DNA of 64,000 nt from Planctomycetaceae bacterium (GTDB lineage: Bacteria > Planctomycetota > Phycisphaerae > SM23-33): NCBI GenBank assembly GCA_039680605.1, contig JBDKTA010000065.1:1-64000 (forward strand), read 5' to 3'. Under the pieces are notes generated by a model. It had not been told where the DNA came from. It searched no databases and worked only from the letters and a program-made list of their open reading frames with translations. Below are positions 5,420-47,735 of this stretch, one piece after another. The position numbers and the translations under genes are program-made. How positions within the stretch are numbered: the stretch's first letter is position 1; every line of letters starts with the position of its first letter.

Positions 5420-6442
5420 TCATGAAAGAACTTGCCCGGCGATCGCCAGAGCCCGCTCGATATCCTGCTCGTCGACTTCCAGGCACGTCACGGCCCGGCA
5501 GGAATGGGGACCCAGCGCCATGATCCGCACGCCGGCCTCGTCGAGCCTGGCAGCCAGGTCCGCGGCGGGCATGGTGGTGATGTCGAAGAAGACGATGTTG
5601 GTCTGGACGCTCTGGGGGTCGAGTTTGACGCCCGGCAGGGCCGCCAGCCCGCCTGCAAGTTTCCGGGCGTTGGCATGATCTTCCGCCAGGCGCCGGCGAT
5701 TGTGTTCCAGGGCGTACAACGCCCCCGCCGCGATGATGCCCACCTGCCGCATGCCGCCGCCGAAGAGTTTTCGCACGCGTCTCGCCTGGGCGATGAAGTC
5801 CTTCGTGCCCGCCAGCGCCGAGCCCACCGGCGCGCCCAGGCCTTTCGAAAAGCACACGCTGACGGAGTCCACCTGCCCAGCGTAGTCCGCTTCGGATACG
5901 CCGGCGGCGACGGCGGCGTTCCAAAGCCGCGCGCCGTCCATGTGGATCTTCATCCCGCGCCTGCGTGCCTCGGCCGACACGCCGGCCAGCGTCTCCAGCG
6001 GCCAGATGCTCCCGCCGCCGCGATTGTGCGTGTTCTCGAGGCACACCAGCGACGGCTGGGGGAAGTGTACGTTCGCCGGCCGGATCGCCGCGGCCAGTTC
6101 ATCGGCGTTGAAGATTCCGCGCCGGGCCTCGATCAGCCGCATCGTGACGCCGGAAAGCGCCGCCGGAGCGCCGGCCTCATAGTAGTGGCAGTGGGCGTTG
6201 GCGTCGGTGACGACTTCGTCGCCCGCACGCGTGTGGCAGCGTATGGCGATCTGATTGGCCATCGTCCCCGAAGGCGTATAGAGAGCGGCCTCTTTGCTGA
6301 GAATCTCGGCCGTCTTCTTTTCCAGAGCGATGACGGTGGGATCGTCGCCGAGCACATCATCGCCCACTTCCGCCGCCGCGATGGCGGCGCGCATGGCCGG
6401 GGTTGGTTTGGTAATCGTGTCAGATCGCAGGTCTATGGGCAT
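5420..6442 (-). CDS. ltaE: low-specificity L-threonine aldolase
   Basis: This PLP enzyme cleaves threonine/allo-threonine to glycine and acetaldehyde. The N-terminus [15 protein letters not shown] is diagnostic. G-T-M-A-N-Q and H-M-D-G-A-R-L-W follow, with the PLP-lysine in [14 protein letters not shown]. Length is 340 residues from the ATG at 6442. The frame is open upstream for eleven more codons, but these are encoded by an AATTTCC repeat array and are unlikely to be translated. No strong Shine-Dalgarno remains because the repeat abuts the start codon. Confidence 0.93.
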
Positions 6443-6480
6443 TTCAATTTCCAATTTACAATTTCCAATTTCCAATTGAG
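6443..6480. repeat. AATTTCC simple-repeat array (left flank of IVP cassette 1)
   Basis: Four imperfect copies of a CAATTTCC-type unit lie between the ltaE start codon and the four-helix-bundle gene. The same unit recurs in inverted orientation on the other side of that gene (6894-6926 and again 6984-7017). Confidence 0.8.
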
Positions 6481-6488
6481 AAGAACCT

Positions 6489-6869
6489 TCACGCCGGGTT
6501 CTTCCTGGCCTTGGCGACCCTTCTTGCTTTGGCGGTCTTTTCGGACGCTACAACAATCGAGATGATCTCTCGTCCTTCCTTGATCAGGTCGCTGACAAGA
6601 GCATCCTTTGTCAATTCGGCCTCTTTTGCCATGACGATCCAGAAGACGGATTCATCCGCTTCCTCTTCAACGATGCCGAGCTTGTTGAGAAAGTCTGCGT
6701 AGCTTCTTCCTGCACACGCGGCGTGATAATTCGCCGCGGCGCTGGTTCCGCATCTAATCAACTGATTAGCCATGATCTTGCCCGTAATGGTCTTTGGAAA
6801 TGACTCGGCAAGGCGTATGCACCGCAGCGCGTATGCCCGCAGTCTCTTCTTCATTTCATCAGGCGTCAT
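6489..6869 (-). CDS. four-helix-bundle protein, S23 / 23S rRNA IVP family
   Basis: The protein has 126 residues and four predicted helices. Family hallmarks are A-L-R-C-I-R-L near the N-terminus, F-P-K-T, then Q-L-I-R-C-G-T-S-A-A-A-N-Y and D-F-L-N-K-L-G-I-V-E-E-E-A-D-E-S. This family is known from open reading frames inside 23S rRNA intervening sequences and from Avd-like accessory proteins of diversity-generating retroelements; no retroelement is present here. The ATG at 6869 follows AGAGGCG. The gene is enclosed by inverted AATTTCC arrays that butt against ltaE and dapB. Its function is unknown. Confidence 0.85.
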   Translation of the reverse strand: MTPDEMKKRLRAYALRCIRLAESFPKTITGKIMANQLIRCGTSAAANYHAACAGRSYADFLNKLGIVEEEADESVFWIVMAKEAELTKDALVSDLIKEGREIISIVVASEKTAKARRVAKARKNPA

Positions 6870-6893
6870 GGTCGCCTCTGTTGTTTAATGTTG

Positions 6894-6926
6894 TTAAATT
6901 GGAAATTCCAAATTGGAAATTGGAAA
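6894..6926. repeat. AAATTGGAAATT array (right flank of IVP cassette 1)
   Basis: The units AAATTGGAAATT-CCAAATTGG and further copies are in inverted orientation to 6443-6480. The flanking text TTAATGTTGTTAAATTGG recurs almost exactly at 6975-6990. Confidence 0.8.
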
Positions 6927-6962
6927 TTACTCCAAACCCTTCTTCATCTCATCAGGCGTCAT
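6927..6962 (-). pseudogene. truncated second copy of the IVP gene start
   Basis: Reading minus from 6962 gives MTPDEMKKGLE then stop. The first eight codons are identical in protein to the complete gene at 6489-6869 (MTPDEMKKRLRAY). It is followed by another AATTTCC array and preceded by the same TTGTTAAATTGG leader. The gene body has been deleted between the two arrays, leaving a tandem remnant. Confidence 0.7.
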
Positions 6963-19435: not shown

Positions 19436-20518
<1,083 letters not shown>

Positions 20519-20572
20519 TTGGATGATTGGATGGATGGATGATTGGATGGATGGATGGATGGATGGATGGGG
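20519..20572. repeat. GGAT tetranucleotide array (left flank of IVP cassette 2)
   Basis: About 11 GGAT units, some interrupted by GATT, start right at the obgE stop codon. The inverted equivalent (ATCC) lies at 21073-21111 on the other side of the IVP gene. Confidence 0.85.
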
Positions 20573-20615
20573 GATTCGGGTTTGGGAGCTTTCTTCTGGC
20601 GCAGGGAGATGGGCT

Positions 20616-21026
20616 GTGAAGAGAAACAATGTCAACCGGGGATATCGGGACCTTCGGGTTTGGCAAGATGCCGTTGACTTGTATGTTCTCGTTTCACGTG
20701 CATTCGCTAAACCTGCCTTCGAGCTTGGAAAAGTGACGTCGAACCTGCTGGATGCGGCCAACAGCATTTCCCGCAACATCGCAGAGGGTTATTGCAGGCG
20801 ATCTGCCAAAGAGTATCTGAACTTCCTGAACATTGCCTTGGGTTCCTGCGGCGAATTGCTTTCTGCCGTCACCGCATCCAACAAGGCTTCACAACTCCCT
20901 GACGATAAATTCGAAGCCATCGACACATTGCATTACAAGGTGGAGAATGAACTGCTTAAACTGATACAAGCGATTCGGAACAAGAACCGTGATGGAGAAT
21001 GGAATGAAGCGTTCTCAGAAAGGTAG
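20616..21026 (+). CDS. four-helix-bundle protein, S23 / 23S rRNA IVP family (second copy)
   Basis: I chose the GTG start at 20616 after GGGAG, giving 136 residues. Upstream in-frame codons are translations of the GGAT array. The sequence has the canonical family signature: GYRDLRVWQDAVDLYVL, then AANSISRNIAEGYCR and EYLNFLNIALGSCGEL, ending with a long helix. It is a different subfamily from the gene at 6489-6869, so this is not a recent duplication. It is bracketed by inverted GGAT/ATCC arrays between obgE and coaX. Unknown cellular function; the family is known from 23S rRNA intervening sequences. Confidence 0.9.
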   Translation: MKRNNVNRGYRDLRVWQDAVDLYVLVSRAFAKPAFELGKVTSNLLDAANSISRNIAEGYCRRSAKEYLNFLNIALGSCGELLSAVTASNKASQLPDDKFEAIDTLHYKVENELLKLIQAIRNKNRDGEWNEAFSER

Positions 21027-21072
21027 CCTGCCGGCCCATACCTGTTCGCACTGCGAACTACGCCGGGCAAGG

Positions 21073-21111
21073 TTCATCCATCCATCCATCCATCCATCCA
21101 TCCATTCATCC
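21073..21111. repeat. ATCC array (right flank of IVP cassette 2)
   Basis: Nine near-perfect CATC/ATCC units in inverted orientation to 20519-20572, ending 23 bases before the coaX ATG. Confidence 0.85.
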
Positions 21112-21133: not shown

Positions 21134-21925
21134 ATGGAAATCGAAGAAATCCCGTCGGTTCTTGCCTGCGATGTGGGCAATACAAACATCCGCATGGCGT
21201 GCGTCAGTGGCGAGGAGGTCAGTAGTGTCGTCATCGTGCCCTCCGATGATGAGCGCGCTATCGCCGCGGCGATCAAGGCCGCATGGGACGAGATTCCCGA
21301 GCCCAAAGCCCTGGCCGCCTGCAGCGTCAACGCCTCCGCTCTTGCGCACCTGGAGCGGGCGGCGATGGCCGCCGGCGCCCCGCCGGTGCAGGTCGTCGGG
21401 CGCGATCTGCCGCTGCCGATCAAGACCACGCTGAAGCATCCTGAGGTTGTGGGAACCGACCGCCTATGTGCCGCCGTGGCGGCGTACGACCGCTTGGGCG
21501 CCGCATGCGTGGTGGCCGACTTCGGCACGGCGGTCACCATCGACTGCGTCGACGACGGCGGCGTGTTCCAGGGCGGGGCGATATTTCCGGGGCTGCACCT
21601 GTCGGCCGCGGCGCTGCATGAGCACACCGCGCAGTTGCCGCAGGTGACGATCGAGGCCCCGACGTGGGCCTTCGGCGGCGACACGCGCGAGGCGATTCTG
21701 GCGGGCCTGTTCGCTTCGGCCCGCGGGGCGCTGCAGCAGCTTGTCGAGGCGTACGCCACGGCGCTGAACCATTGGCCGCTGGTGATCGCCACCGGCGGGG
21801 ACGCCGCGGCGGTCGTCGGCGAGCTGGAAGAATCCTCATTGGTCCAGGCGATCGTGCCCGACCTGGTCCTGCGCGGCGTCGCGATGGCCTACTACAACGC
21901 CCTGACTAAAGAAGAAGCGGAATAA
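21134..21925 (+). CDS. coaX: type III pantothenate kinase
   Basis: CoaX phosphorylates pantothenate, the first step of coenzyme A synthesis. The 263 residues show the ASKHA-fold motifs: ACDVGNTNIRMA at the N-terminus, VVGTDRLCAAVAAY and VVADFGTAVTIDCV in the middle, and GGAIFPGL. The C-terminal ATGGDA is the adenosine motif. TTGGAG precedes the ATG. The preceding GGAT-flanked cassette separates it from obgE. Confidence 0.94.
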   Translation: MEIEEIPSVLACDVGNTNIRMACVSGEEVSSVVIVPSDDERAIAAAIKAAWDEIPEPKALAACSVNASALAHLERAAMAAGAPPVQVVGRDLPLPIKTTLKHPEVVGTDRLCAAVAAYDRLGAACVVADFGTAVTIDCVDDGGVFQGGAIFPGLHLSAAALHEHTAQLPQVTIEAPTWAFGGDTREAILAGLFASARGALQQLVEAYATALNHWPLVIATGGDAAAVVGELEESSLVQAIVPDLVLRGVAMAYYNALTKEEAE

Positions 21926-21999: not shown

Positions 22000-22035
22000 A
22001 TGGATGGATGGATGGATGGATGGATGGATGGATGG
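22000..22035. repeat. GGAT array between coaX and mnmE-like
   Basis: Nine GGAT units without an associated IVP gene. It is followed at 22044-22104 by a GGTGGCATGGCGACACGCG...GTCGCCAT palindrome, the same order as at 41632-41740. Confidence 0.8.
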
Positions 22036-23530: not shown

Positions 23531-23582
23531 GTGGCACAGCCTTTCCAGGCTGTGACTCACAGGCTGGAAAGCCTGTGCCACC
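23531..23582. repeat. GTGGCACAGCC palindrome, 52 bp
   Basis: Two 25-base arms, near-perfect inverted copies: GTGGCACAGCCTTTCCAGG on the left and CTGGAAAGCCTGTGCCAC on the right. Relatives occur at 38464-38515, 47631-47713 and 16967-16997. Confidence 0.8.
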
Positions 23583-26598: not shown

Positions 26599-29500
26599 GA
26601 CGCTGGGCGCGAAGGCGATCGACGTTTCCAGCCACGAGCCGCAACTGCATCCGCCGCCGGCCTCGGGCGAGAGCACCATCCCGCAGGCGGCGACGGTGCT
26701 GATCCAGCACCCGGGGCGCAGGCGGTACCAGAAGCTTGCCTGGTCGTTGTTGAAGTCCCACACCGTCACGTGGCTGGAGCGGAAGATCGCCGTGCGGTCG
26801 GTCATAATGTACGTGCCGCATCCGCCGCCGGGCATGCGGACCTCCAGCAGCGCTCCGGTGGCCAGGTCGAGCACGCGCGGACGCACGAACACCTTGCCGT
26901 CGACGATCGCCGGATGCGACATGTGCCCGCCGTGGTTGTCGCTCATCCACTCGAAGCTCGTCTGCCACAGCGCCGAGCCGTCGGCAGCGCTGAACGCATA
27001 CACGTTGTACCGCACGTCGGAGGCGTTAATGACCAGCCGCCCCTCCGCCGCGGCCATGTAGAACACCACCACGCCCGGGGCGGTCTTGAGCGGCTGCTCC
27101 CACAGCAGGCGTCCATCGGCGGCGTCAAGCGCCACGAGATACTGCTGCTGCCACAGCTCGTCCATGCCGACGCGGCGATCGGCGCTGGCCAGCACAGCCG
27201 GGTGTCGGCACTCGACGAAATACACCCGCCCGTCGGCGATGCAGATCGTCGAGTTGATCACCACGCCGCCGGCGTACTTCCACGCCAGGCCGCCGGTGCT
27301 CTTGTTCATCGCGAAGAGATTTTCACTGCAGACCTTGAACGTCGCCGGACCGTCCTTGGCGTCATACCAGTTCGCATGGCCGACAAACGCCACGAACGCC
27401 GATCCGGCCTTGACCGCGCTGCCGATGATATTGGCGCCGCCATCGGCGACATAGCCCCAGTCCCACGCCGCGCCTGTGTGCCATGGCGGTCGTTTTCCCG
27501 CCGCCATGTCCCCGGACCCTGAAACTACCTCAAACATCTTGGCCACGCTGCCGTCTCGCTGGTCGATCTTCCAGCACTGCCCTTTGACGGCCGCGTAGAG
27601 ATGAGATTGGTCGGCGCACCAGTTGCCGCAGTCGCGGGGCATGTTGAAGCGGCAGAACGCGGGCATTTCGAGCGACCAGAGCACCGTGCCGTTGAACGAG
27701 TCCAGCGCCACGATGCGCCGGCGCCCCTGGCCAAACAGCCTGCCGTTGATCGCCAGGGGGGCGGGTTTGCGGCCGTTGCGGTCGGGCTGATACCGCGGGC
27801 CCGGTTCACCGACCCACTGCACGGCCAGGTCGAGCGTGGACCCTGCGCCGGCCAGCGCCTCGCCGCCGTAGGAGGTGTTGTCGGCCAGACCGTACTGGTG
27901 AGTCCAGACGCCGGCGGTGGCGATCGGCGGGAGCGTGGTGACGGTCGGGGAGATGGCGGCTGGGGAACGGCCGCCATGGCACCCTGTGTCGCCGCCGCGA
28001 ATCAACACGCCGCTGCCGGGGCACAGGAGGCGCATGGCCTCGGCGGCGGCAGGATCGCTCAGCGGTTGCGACGCGACGATGATGTTGGCGAAGCTGCCGA
28101 CGAAGGGGATGGCGTCGTAGCTCCGGACGTGATGGACAGCCACGCATGCGCCGTACACGCCGGCGGCCTGGAACATGCGGCGGGCAGAGGCAACCGCCGC
28201 GGCGTCGGTATCGACAGCGATCACGCGCAGGCGGCTCTGGCGTGCCAGTTCGTATGCCAATTGCCCGTCGCCGCAGCCGAGCATCAGGCAGATGCCCCGG
28301 TCGACGCCGGCGGTCTTGAGAATGCCTTCGGCGGCCTGTCGTGTGGCATGGGCGTCTCGCCCATGCTCCGGGGTGGCATGGGCGTCTCGCCCATGCTCCG
28401 GGGTGGCATGGGCGTCTCGCCCATGCTCTTGCTTTTGTCCCTGCACAGGCAAGACGCCCACGCTACAGGGCTCATAGTTGAAGTACGTGTCGCACTCGAA
28501 AGTCACCGCCTGATCGCCGGCCCAGGCCGTGCAGTCGTAGATGGCGTCCCGGCGCAGATCCGTCAGATGCACCTCGTGCTGGACCTTCGGCTGAGGGTCT
28601 TCGATCGCGCGCTGGTCCTGGCCGTGGGCATATTGAAACTTCGTCGGGACCGGGTCGGGGGTTTGCCAGCGGACTGTGGCCGCGGTGCGGCTGGTGAATT
28701 GCAGGTACGGCGCCAGGGGCATGGCCTCGGGCGGGGTGATTTCCTCGACCGGGCCGCCCTCGACGTACGCGGGGGGTGCCGGTTTCCACGCATTGGCGGC
28801 GGCCTGCCCCTGAGGCGCGAAGCAGTAGATCGCCCCGGCGTCGGTGGTGGCGTAGAGCATTCCCGCGGCCAGCGCCAGGCCGTGTACTTTGCCCGTCACG
28901 GCCGACTGCCAGAGTTGCAGACCGGTGTCGGCGTCGAAGGCCGCCAGGGCGTCGGCCCCGCCGGCAAAGAGCGTGGTCCCGGCCAGCACGAGCGAATACG
29001 GGTAGTCGCACGGTTGCTTCCATCGCTCGGCGCCGCTGGCGCGATCGACGGCCGCCAGCGTGCTGCGCGTGAGCACGAAGACCGTGCCGTCATGCACCAC
29101 GGCGGCGGTTCCATCATCGAAGGCCGCCAGCTTCTGCCCCGAATCGCCGGCGCTGAGGGTGATCCATCCGGCGTTGTTGCCCGGGCCGTGCAGGACCTGG
29201 TCATCTTCGGTCAGCAGCACGAAGCATCCCCCGCCGTTGGTGAGCGAGCCCAGCAGCCGCCCGTCTTTACGCGAGAACATCAGCGGCGGGATGCGGCCTT
29301 GGGGAATGTACAACCGGTCGGCCGAGATCAGCATGGCTCCTTCCATCGTCAGCCCGGCGGTTTGCTCGACGCGTCCGCTCTGCGGGGCCCCCTGGTGCAG
29401 GGCGACGTATCGCCCGCGTCCTTGGGGCTTGCCGCTGTGGGCGTCGACGGCGCAGAGATACGAGTCTTCCCACGGGAGCATGCCGGCGGCGAAATACGCC

Positions 29501-30863: not shown

Positions 30864-30875
30864 ACCGGCATAGTA

Positions 30876-30966
30876 ACCAGTAATCAGTAACCGGTAACCA
30901 GTAATTGCACAGTTGAGCAGTGATTACCGATTACCGATTACCGATTACTGATTACTGATTACTGAT
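30876..30966. repeat. GTAACCAGTAATCAG / ATTACTGATT tandem array
   Basis: Alternating TAGTAACCAGTAATC and inverted ATTACCGATTACTGATTAC units lie between alkD and the deacetylase gene. The same family forms a longer array at 37124-37258. Confidence 0.8.
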
Positions 30967-31787: not shown

Positions 31788-31959
31788 CTCACCGCAGAGT
31801 TCGCGGAGGACGCAGAGAAGACGGACAAGGAAGGGGAATGATGGAATAATGGAATCCTGCACCAAGCCGACGTTCCATTATTCCATTATTCCATTGTTCC
31901 TTCTCTTCAGCTTTCTCTGCGTCCTCTGCGATCTCTGCGGTGAGTCGCTTTTGCGGCTA
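31788..31959. repeat. inverted-repeat element with exchanged core (shell copy 5)
   Basis: Ends ACCGCAGAGTTCGCGGAGG and CCTCTGCGATCTCTGCGG match the copy 1-4 shell. The core is instead a nested inverted repeat of ATGGAATAATGG/CCATTATTCCATT. The terminal GGCTAG overlaps the stop of the CPBP protease gene. Confidence 0.7.
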
Positions 31960-37123: not shown

Positions 37124-37258
37124 GGCAGTAAGCAGTAATCCGTAAACAGTAATCAGTAATCGGGTAATCAGTAATCGGGTTACTGGTTACTGTACTGGTT
37201 ACTGGTTACTGGTTACTGGTTACTGGTTACTGATTACCGGTTACTGATTACCGATTAC
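37124..37258. repeat. TTACTGG / CAGTAATC tandem array
   Basis: About 18 units of a 7-8 base repeat: AGTAATC on the left, TTACTGG in the middle and GATTACC on the right. It can fold on itself. It fills the gap between the Nudix gene and dxr. Confidence 0.85.
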
Positions 37259-38459: not shown

Positions 38460-38463
38460 CTTG

Positions 38464-38515
38464 GTGGCACAGGCTTTCCAGCCTGTGCTCCACAGCCTCC
38501 AAAGGCTGTGCCACC
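38464..38515. repeat. GTGGCACAGGC palindromes between dxr and rseP
   Basis: GTGGCACAGGCTTTCCAGCC-TGTG and CACAGCCTCCAAAGGCTGTGC-type arms. It ends 13 bases before the rseP ATG. Confidence 0.75.
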
Positions 38516-41631: not shown

Positions 41632-41667
41632 ATGGATGGATGGATGGATGGATGGATGGATGGATGA
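41632..41667. repeat. GGAT array upstream of the lipoprotein gene
   Basis: Nine GGAT units with no IVP gene. A GGAAGAATGGAATGTTGG run and the GGTGGCATGGCGACACGCG palindrome follow (41698-41740), the same arrangement as at 22000-22104. Confidence 0.8.
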
Positions 41668-46083: not shown

Positions 46084-46484
46084 GGCTTGTTTCTACGACG
46101 ATTGCGTGGCTAAGTCAACGGGGACGGGGACGGGGACGGGGAGTGCGGGATTGGGACGGGATTGAGGGGATTAAGAGGATTAAGACAAGAGGAGTTACTA
46201 AACGGGGATTGGGACGGGGAGTGCCGGATCGGGGAGCGTTTGTTTCGTCCTCGTCCTCGTCCTCGTCCTCGTCGTCGTCGTCGGTTGTTTCTTTCCTGGC
46301 CGGAGAACGGGGAGTGCGGGATTACGCGGATTGAAAGGATTAAGAGGATTAAGACAAAGATCAGGAACACGCAGATCGCGGGATCGGCCAGACAGAAGCC
46401 CCAATCGCAATGTCTCCAATCCTCAATCCTGTTTTAAAAATCCTCTTAATCCGCGTAATCCCGCACTCCCCGGTCTCTGATCTG
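46084..46484. repeat. low-complexity intergenic region (GGGGAC, GTCCTC, GATTAAGAG repeats)
   Basis: It contains GGGGACGGGGACGGGGACGG (46119 on), a TCGTCC/TCGTCG run (46250-46285) and GGATTAAGAGGATTAAGAC in direct and inverted copies (46166, 46336, 46437). G-rich runs could form quadruplexes. No gene is visible. Confidence 0.7.
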
Positions 46485-47735
46485 TCAGCGCGAGGCGGTC
46501 TCCAGGGCGTGGAGGTCCTGGCCTTGCTGGAGGGCGTAGGTCTGCCAGGCGGCCGAGAGGCCTTCGAGGAAGTTGGGGTCCGGCGGGACGCACAGCGTCC
46601 GCTCCAGGGCGTCGGCGACGGTGCATCCTTCCTTGAGATTGTCCAGAAACGCCGAGAACTGCTCGCGGCCCAGGCGGCTGTGCAGGAACTGCGTCAGGCT
46701 CAGGCTCTGGGCGTAGAACGTGCCGCGGTGTTCCATGTCGCTCTGGTCCATCAGCAGGAGCTTGTCCATGCTGATGCCGTCGTCGTCGCTCAAAGCCGCC
46801 GCCGCCAGCAGCAGGCGGTCGTTGTCGACGACCGGTTCGGCCAGCATGGCCAGGCCTTCGTTGAGGAACAGCGGGCACGGCGCGTCGCCGAAGTATTCCT
46901 TGAGCACGAGATGGCAGGTTTCGTGGGGCAGCACGCGGTCGATGGTGACGGTGCTGAGGGTGCGGTCCTCGTTGAGCTGCGTCAGGTCGATCCGACGGGT
47001 GACGACGCCGCCGGCCGTGGTGAGGCTGAATCGCCCGCCCGACCACTCCGGCGCCCCGGGGGCGTTGGCGGCGTAGTCGTTCTTGTCGACCCAGACGTTG
47101 ATGTCAACGACGTGCGGATACTCGTGGGGCAGCAGGTCGCCGCAGATGCGACGCAGGCTTGCTTCGGCCAGATCCGCGATCAGCGCCGCAAGGTCCGCAT
47201 TGCGGGCGTGGACGGCGAAGTGGCGGCTCGTGCGGGTGACCGCCGAGCCGACGGCCGCAAGATTCTTCCTCTGCTGCTCGCTCAGGGCGGCGCTGGGCAG
47301 CCCGGGGCGGCGGGCGGCGGAGCCTTCGCGGCAGCGGCGCATCTGTTCAAGCACATACGCGCGGGTCTGCGTCGAGTCGCAGGCCTTGAGGAACTGCTGA
47401 TAAGCGTCCAGCGCCTTGGCGGTCTGGTTCTGGCGCTGATAACACTCGGCGGCGATGATCCACGCCCGACCCGGCGCGCCGGGCTGCGAGAGCAGGTCGT
47501 CGACGACGGCCGTCGCCCGGGCGTAGCGCCCCTGACGCAAATGCTCCAGCGCCGACTGGACGGGCGAGGGCTCGCTCGGCGTCAGGGCGGCCGCCGTACA
47601 CACGCCGGCCGCCAGGGCCAGCGCCAGCACGTGGCACAGCCTTTCCAGGCTGTGTCTGCGGTGGCACAGCCTTTCCAGGCTGTGCTTACACAGGCTAGAA
47701 AGCCTGTGCCACCTTGTCTTGTTAGCCGGCGTCAT
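46485..47735 (-). CDS. exported peptidase MA-like protein with repeat-derived N-terminus
   Basis: The ATG at 47735 overlaps the upstream gene by 14 bases. The first 35 residues include RHSLERLCHRRHSLERLCH, encoded by palindromic repeats, and are followed by the hydrophobic VLALALAAGVC signal core. Next comes a TPR-like section (residues 55-125). The C-terminal gluzincin-like domain has H-E-T-C-H (about 268-272) and downstream F-L-N-E-G-L-A-M, as in HExxH...NEG peptidase MA families. It is probably a periplasmic zinc metallopeptidase. A GTG start after the repeat (VLALAL) is a fallback. Confidence 0.78.
   Translation of the reverse strand: MTPANKTRWHRLSSLCKHSLERLCHRRHSLERLCHVLALALAAGVCTAAALTPSEPSPVQSALEHLRQGRYARATAVVDDLLSQPGAPGRAWIIAAECYQRQNQTAKALDAYQQFLKACDSTQTRAYVLEQMRRCREGSAARRPGLPSAALSEQQRKNLAAVGSAVTRTSRHFAVHARNADLAALIADLAEASLRRICGDLLPHEYPHVVDINVWVDKNDYAANAPGAPEWSGGRFSLTTAGGVVTRRIDLTQLNEDRTLSTVTIDRVLPHETCHLVLKEYFGDAPCPLFLNEGLAMLAEPVVDNDRLLLAAAALSDDDGISMDKLLLMDQSDMEHRGTFYAQSLSLTQFLHSRLGREQFSAFLDNLKEGCTVADALERTLCVPPDPNFLEGLSAAWQTYALQQGQDLHALETASR
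47631..47713. repeat. three GTGGCACAGCC palindromic units inside a coding N-terminus
   Basis: Two direct copies of GTGGCACAGCCTTTCCAGG-CTGTG and one inverted ACAGGCTAGAAAGCCTGTGCC. They lie within the first codons of the peptidase MA-like gene. Confidence 0.8.

Follow-up and report, generated by a model that had tools for sequence, protein, structure and literature searches.

Between obgE and coaX in this planctomycete genome lies a single small gene with short tandem arrays on both sides, the downstream array inverted relative to the upstream one. The locus raises the question of whether these arrays are the ends of an element to which the gene belongs, or repeats of the host that the gene happens to sit among. 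An earlier note, made from the letters alone, had favored the former. We examined the window, by which we mean the whole stretch of 64,000 nucleotides (contig 65 of a 5.23-Mb genome whose relatives include Planctomycetales MAGs), and compared it with S23 loci in the same genome, in the same class and in a named sample worldwide.

A candidate S23 cassette at the obgE stop codon

The feature is probably an S23 (IVP) insertion cassette of ~0.6 kb, placed at the obgE stop codon within the obgE-coaX-mnmE operon (Table 1). Its upstream arm had been described as about 11 GGAT units running from that stop codon. The array does begin within the obgE stop region, however it is a mix of octamers and tetramers rather than pure GGAT: as a tetramer it scores 12.8 copies at 82% by TRF, and it fits better as an 8/16-nt period, TGGATGATTGGATGGA (94%). 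The nine ATCC units ahead of coaX were recovered as described. The two arms align across 37 bp with a score of 64, against a mean of 20 and a 95th percentile of 25 for mismatched arms of other elements, and no such arrays appeared in order-3 Markov shuffles of the window. The purine-rich strand of the left arm lies upstream of the S23 gene, and the element as a whole folds better than shuffled sequence (z -2.6). The S23 gene is the only gene between the arms (PF05635 and TIGR02436, E 2e-19 and 4e-20), as the earlier reading had it; a 167-aa open reading frame from an ATG at 20523 runs through the left array. With the array that follows coaX, three GGAT-type arrays lie within 1.5 kb at obgE-coaX-mnmE.

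Table 1. Parts of the obgE-coaX cassette and related features of the window
Feature	Position	Strand	Basis
obgE, upstream host gene	19490..20518	+	NCBIfam NF008955, E 1e-147
Left (upstream) arm, GGATGATT/GGATGGAT array	20513..20570	+	TRF; pairs with right arm, score 64
S23 / 23S-rRNA-IVP gene, 136 aa, GTG start	20616..21026	+	PF05635, E 2e-19
Right (downstream) arm, ATCC array, inverted relative to left arm	21075..21111	-	TRF, 9.2 copies, 93%
coaX, downstream host gene	21134..21925	+	Type III pantothenate kinase models
Third GGAT array, coaX-mnmE gap, without a gene of its own	22000..22035	+	TRF, 9 copies, 100%
Cassette 1: S23 gene (6531-6848 matched), heptamer AATTTCC / GGAAATT arrays on either side	6442..6928	-	Tandem-repeat and profile matches

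A first cassette in the window, reported earlier to have a different unit and a similar layout, is real: arms of the heptamer AATTTCC enclose another S23 gene. The likeness between the two had been called convergent; the wider comparison below suggests instead that the cassettes form one element family.

The protein belongs to the S23 / 23S rRNA IVP family by sequence cut-offs (PF05635, 70 bits versus a cut-off of 33.8; TIGR02436, 72 versus 24) and by fold. The AlphaFold2 model is a four-helix bundle (pLDDT 88), whose best PDB match is 2gsc (XCC0516), followed by 2rld (BT_0352) and, more distantly, Avd (4dwl). The S23 protein bears neither a transposase nor a nuclease signature. In 12 pairs dN/dS is 0.03-0.25, which shows purifying selection on S23 genes, and thus the protein matters to the element. 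Solved structures of S23 proteins have been available since 2006, and to our knowledge no function has been assigned to them. The subfamily of the window protein is rare: leaving out the window gene and its paralogue, 392 Planctomycetota genomes yielded 2 matches.

Inverted arms recur around S23 genes

The genome has 13 S23 matches, and six of the ten best carry inverted arms of their own (L001, L004, L005, L006, L009 and L010), as do all four of its GxxExxY genes, one pair of arms being weak (L015, score 37). Among relatives in the same class, 77 of 99 S23 genes have an arm score of at least 34, compared to 1.1% of mismatched pairings, while direct pairings reach this score in 9/99. In the worldwide sample of some 30 phyla, 53/76 S23 genes lie between inverted arrays (1.9% when mismatched). 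On closed plasmids of cyanobacteria and Riemerella, eight of ten score at least 42; here mismatched pairings reach 14%, a consequence of the similarity among the units and of two records being near-copies. The control gene coaX has inverted arms in only 2/28 cases, one of them flanked by gene-less palindromes. Because closed plasmids show the matching layout, the assembly error that had been considered for this locus is unlikely.

The neighbors of S23 genes are different and unrelated from one plasmid locus to the next. None of 20 worldwide loci examined lies in or near rRNA, and one Nostoc cassette is inserted antisense within nrdB-nrdA. A variant arrangement was seen in one S23 subfamily (L002 and L127, related to L068, L072 and L120), in which both hairpin arms lie upstream of the gene rather than around it; in L002 and L127 the gene directly follows a tRNA-like sequence.

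The repeat unit follows the protein lineage

The period of the arms depends on the protein. S23 arms in the class are mostly of 7 nt (46 of 62 scored, with 14 nt in 7 and 8 nt in 5), and the worldwide sample gave the same preference (7 nt in 33/40, 14 nt in 4/40). GxxExxY genes (PF13366, of the PD-(D/E)XK family) are unrelated to S23 yet have an identical layout, with arms in 43/49. Their period is 9 nt in 21 of 30 and 7 nt in none (Fisher p ~1e-12 versus S23, in both directions). The strand polarity is shared, the purine-rich strand lying upstream in 100/109 S23 and 40/42 GxxExxY arms.

The same coupling is seen within S23. All four members of the window subfamily, two of which are in other families, have 8-nt inverted arms of the GGA type, with units GGATGAWT (the GGATGATT/GGATGGAT of the window), GGATGAAT, GGAGGGAT and GGAATAAT, indicating that the unusual unit of the obgE-coaX cassette is that of its protein subfamily. 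In a set of 111 elements, with same-genome and orthologous pairs taken out, protein identity correlates with the similarity of arms compared in the same orientation (Mantel r 0.27, p 0.002), whereas the wrong orientation gives r -0.18.

We also considered whether a mirrored order of units proves copying from one arm to the other. The first comparison gave 0.85 versus 0.74, however a unit-shuffle control reduced this to 0.850 versus 0.824, so the mirrored order is only weakly better than shuffled and we dropped the argument. The GxxExxY loci L302-L350 and L014-L017 have inverted 9-nt arrays of a near-constant unit, CRCRGAGNN, and similar units flank GxxExxY genes on Bernardetia, Sphingomonas and Gemmatirosa plasmids (L420-L422). 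The Sphingomonas gene lies between fabD and fabG, where the left arm alone was seen.

Filled and empty sites

The earlier note had also suggested a search for empty sites, and these were found at two distances. The order obgE-coaX-mnmE is conserved in relatives; in other genera of the same family and order the three genes are mostly adjacent, with gaps of 10-100 bp and no S23 gene, and coaX is up to 62% identical in these cassette-free genomes. Two such relatives (L093 and L091) have gene-less inverted arrays of other units in the obgE-coaX and coaX-mnmE junctions. Closer comparisons come from Nostocales plasmids, where filled and empty junctions have flanks ~91-97% identical. The inserts measure 503, 413 and 518 bp with both arms included, and fit between one gene's stop codon and the next gene's start codon, both of which are preserved. 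The empty junctions have no arrays, and therefore gene and arrays arrive together. Target-site duplications are not consistent: 3 bp at one plasmid site, 5 bp at another and small replacements at two others, with no aggregate signal. Taken with the recurrence of the arrays around most S23 genes and the dependence of the unit on protein lineage, these sites bear out the view that the inverted-array ends belong to the cassette.

The paralogous cassettes L008 and L009 have diverged to dS ~2 and still share a near-identical downstream arm, with homology stopping at the outer end of this arm, indicating that arms can be younger than the gene. The upstream arm of L008 has been lost to an apparent IS end (upstream of position 1451). 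One candidate for a filled site reduced by internal deletion, L409, matched in junction and array motif; S23 homology was absent and we score it as a gene-less hairpin only. At the cas6-cas4 junction, Anabaena sp. 90 (L405, 540-850) carries an S23 cassette whose heptamer arms are very long, and Dolichospermum (L402) has a different palindromic element, GTAGGTTGGGTT...AACCCAACCTAC.

Arrays without a gene

Similar arrays also occur on their own. The genome has 209 overlapping (GGAT)4 matches, amounting to dozens of arrays, and lone GGAT arrays greatly outnumber those that flank S23. The possibility raised earlier, that they expand independently of the gene, is thus partly right: they do stand without a gene in this genome, however arrays also spread with S23. 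A census of sampled genome stretches (864 kb from three genomes) found that most inverted arrays have a gap below 200 bp and no gene, whereas S23 lies between heptamer or GGAT arrays that form inverted pairs at a distance of 400-505 bp (the G035 pair being assigned through L132). A gene-less GGAT palindrome in the genome of the window lies at G000:C9:10885-11005. Arms are more similar to gene-less arrays within their own genome than to those in other genomes (44.7 versus 27.3, p 0.008).

The abundance of 9-nt arrays tracks GxxExxY strongly, and that of 7-nt arrays tracks S23 more weakly. In the 27 genomes that have GxxExxY, the density of the nonamer CRCRRAGNNCRCRRAG is 10.0 per Mb, against 1.5 per Mb in the 13 genomes that lack it (p 2e-5). 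Over these 40 genomes the rank correlation with GxxExxY is 0.74, or 0.63 as a partial correlation given S23, and a control pattern is flat. Part of the count is the genes' own arms, but the window's genome (G000) has 571 matches for four genes. For 7-nt arrays the count was 69 where genomes have 5-13 S23 genes (1,080 kb sampled) and zero where they have 0-1 (486 kb sampled). Over ten genomes, 7-nt arrays correlate with the S23 count (rho 0.69, p 0.026), two S23-rich genomes being almost array-free in the sample, and 9-nt arrays with GxxExxY (rho 0.81, p 0.005).

Several further repeats were noted. Perfect (GGAT)9 arrays without S23 occur at 41632-41666 as well as in the coaX-mnmE gap, each followed by a GGTGGCATGGCGACACGCG...TCGCCATG palindrome, and the pairing recurs at G000:C9:21580-21660. 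Gene-less palindromic arrays of 7-, 8- and 9-nt units lie at 30872-30966, 37125-37258, 31788-31944 and 46303-46477, the unit of the last resembling the arms of a GxxExxY cassette elsewhere in the genome (L017). A dispersed REP-like palindrome, GGTGGCACAGSCTTTCCAGSCTGTG, has three copies in the window (23531-23581, 38463-38515 and 47660-47713), and a perfect 30-bp tandem repeat, GTGGCATGGGCGTCTCGCCCATGCTCCGGG, itself palindromic, is present in 2.9 copies at 28343-28428.

Alternative explanations

The main rival holds that inverted arrays are pre-existing host repeats, like the rRNA helices used by IVS, and that S23 lands in their loops by a structure-directed route, which would make the arrays targets and not ends. 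The frequency of gene-less palindromic arrays, even at the obgE-coaX and coaX-mnmE junctions of relatives, favors it, and it accounts for the resemblance of arms to the gene-less arrays of their own genome and for the near-identical arm of the long-diverged L008 and L009. It does not account for empty plasmid sites that are free of arrays, which come with the gene, or for a unit whose period, sequence and polarity track the protein lineage across genomes; furthermore, where genomes have 0-1 S23 genes, the stretches sampled contained no 7-nt arrays. We regard loop targeting as unlikely. Chance bracketing by a hypermutable GGAT microsatellite, with S23 as an unrelated insertion, might be suspected from the dozens of GGAT arrays in this genome and the three that crowd this locus. 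However, inverted arms of 8-nt GGA-type units are also found in the other three members of the subfamily, of which two occur in other families, and inverted arms recur S23-wide, leaving this explanation very little room.

A different kind of reading places the function of the arms in RNA, as a stem cut by RNase III such that the inserted gene is removed from the operon transcript or insulated in it. It has a precedent in the Coxiella S23 IVS, with its terminal stem, adjoining tandem heptamers and RNase III excision (PMC4990558), and the better-than-shuffled folding of the obgE-coaX element is consistent with it. Selection for an RNA stem was sought as an excess of G.U over A.C mismatches between arms and none was found (130 versus 108, p 0.17, for S23; 50 versus 57 for GxxExxY), which speaks for arms maintained as ends of DNA rather than as stems in RNA. 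The absence of rRNA locations among the 20 loci examined and the antisense cassette in nrdB-nrdA also speak against an RNA-level role, and we consider it improbable. Finally, S23 could be an ordinary host gene with terminators or regulatory hairpins at its sides, as its purifying selection would allow; its patchy and polymorphic presence, the empty sites and the unrelated neighbors from locus to locus make this the most far-fetched of the explanations.

A working model and its implications

Our preferred reading, which we hold with some confidence though well short of certainty, is that the cassette ends are the two inverted tandem arrays and that each S23 protein lineage has its own unit, 8 nt of GGA type here and mostly 7 nt elsewhere. 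Weighing against it are the lack of a transposase or nuclease signature in S23, the inconsistent target-site duplications, the many lone GGAT arrays, the near-identical arm of L008 and L009, the small effect of mirrored unit order, the ten-genome basis of the 7-nt correlation and the position of the empty obgE-coaX sites in other genera. As a mechanism, we suggest that S23, an Avd-like four-helix bundle, may recognize its own array as DNA, possibly as an extruded hairpin. The cell would supply a polymerase or nuclease, and together with S23 this enzyme would copy or move the array-bounded DNA into intergenic gaps, where the upstream stop codon and the downstream start codon would survive the insertion. 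Gene-less palindromes would be passengers of this process; gene-less palindromic arrays of the same vocabulary abound in this genome and are most likely non-autonomous partners or remnants of the cassette.

More broadly, S23 and GxxExxY could be two branches of an unrecognized class of minimal mobile elements, in which the protein sets the period of inverted tandem-array ends (7-8 nt with S23, 9 nt with GxxExxY). These elements and their gene-less derivatives would then have given rise to much of the heptamer and nonamer DNA dispersed in bacterial genomes, with the rRNA IVS as a side branch. We think this joint proposal about equally likely to be right or wrong. If true, an overlooked class of mobile elements shapes intergenic DNA across many phyla. 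With each repeat length linked to a single small protein family, the function of S23 and the origin of heptamer arrays both become testable; for GxxExxY, a nuclease-like protein without an assigned function, a candidate role emerges, with CRCRGAGNN as a candidate recognition motif. In the open-access literature searched, we found no report of tandem-array ends on cassettes of S23 or GxxExxY.

Comparison with known systems

The best reading of the obgE-coaX cassette is one of S23/IVS kind, related to the rRNA IVS and located outside rRNA. With the 23S rRNA IVS of Coxiella and Leptospira it shares the protein family and a single S23 open reading frame enclosed by terminal inverted repeats that can pair into a stem. 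In Coxiella, RNase III excises the IVS, whose terminal stem measures 28 bp; tandem heptamers, GACAGAT, lie beside its S23 frame and vary in copy number between strains (PMC4990558). In contrast to these IVS, the obgE-coaX cassette lies between protein genes, and S23 cassettes have whole tandem arrays as ends, with a unit that depends on the protein lineage, abundant gene-less copies and no sign of RNA-stem selection.

Like the inverted ends of IS elements and DNA transposons, those of related S23 cassettes move with the gene at plasmid sites; unlike them, the arms at obgE-coaX enclose S23 only, with no recognizable transposase. REP/RAYT systems and MITEs offer a closer parallel, in that one small gene with palindromic ends is accompanied by many gene-less palindromes; their abundance tracks the gene strongly for 9-nt arrays and GxxExxY, and more weakly for 7-nt arrays and S23. 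The cassette differs from them in lacking a Y1 or DDE transposase (no PF01797 match was found in the obgE-coaX cassette) and in having tandem arrays of 7, 8 or 9 nt as ends. Y1 transposases were considered as a common driver and rejected, as the palindromes around the Y1 genes of this genome are of the ordinary kind and not tandem arrays. PF05635 has been treated as Avd-like (PMC10053308), and the window S23 model shares its fold with the Avd protein of DGRs (4dwl, TM 0.7-0.9), whereas the reverse transcriptase, template repeat and variable repeat of a DGR are absent between the arms, where S23 stands alone.

Dispersed 7-nt units are themselves familiar, as the STRR of cyanobacteria, GGGNATC of Xanthomonas and Nostoc, and TAACTGA of Beggiatoaceae; the Xanthomonas arrays include 70-75 that form inverted pairs, and the Xanthomonas, Nostoc and Beggiatoaceae arrays were described without an origin or a link to mobile elements (PMC4692102, PMC4679880). 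The 7-nt arrays seen here differ in being tied to S23 cassettes, and the solved S23 structure XCC0516 comes from the very Xanthomonas species that carries the heptamer arrays.
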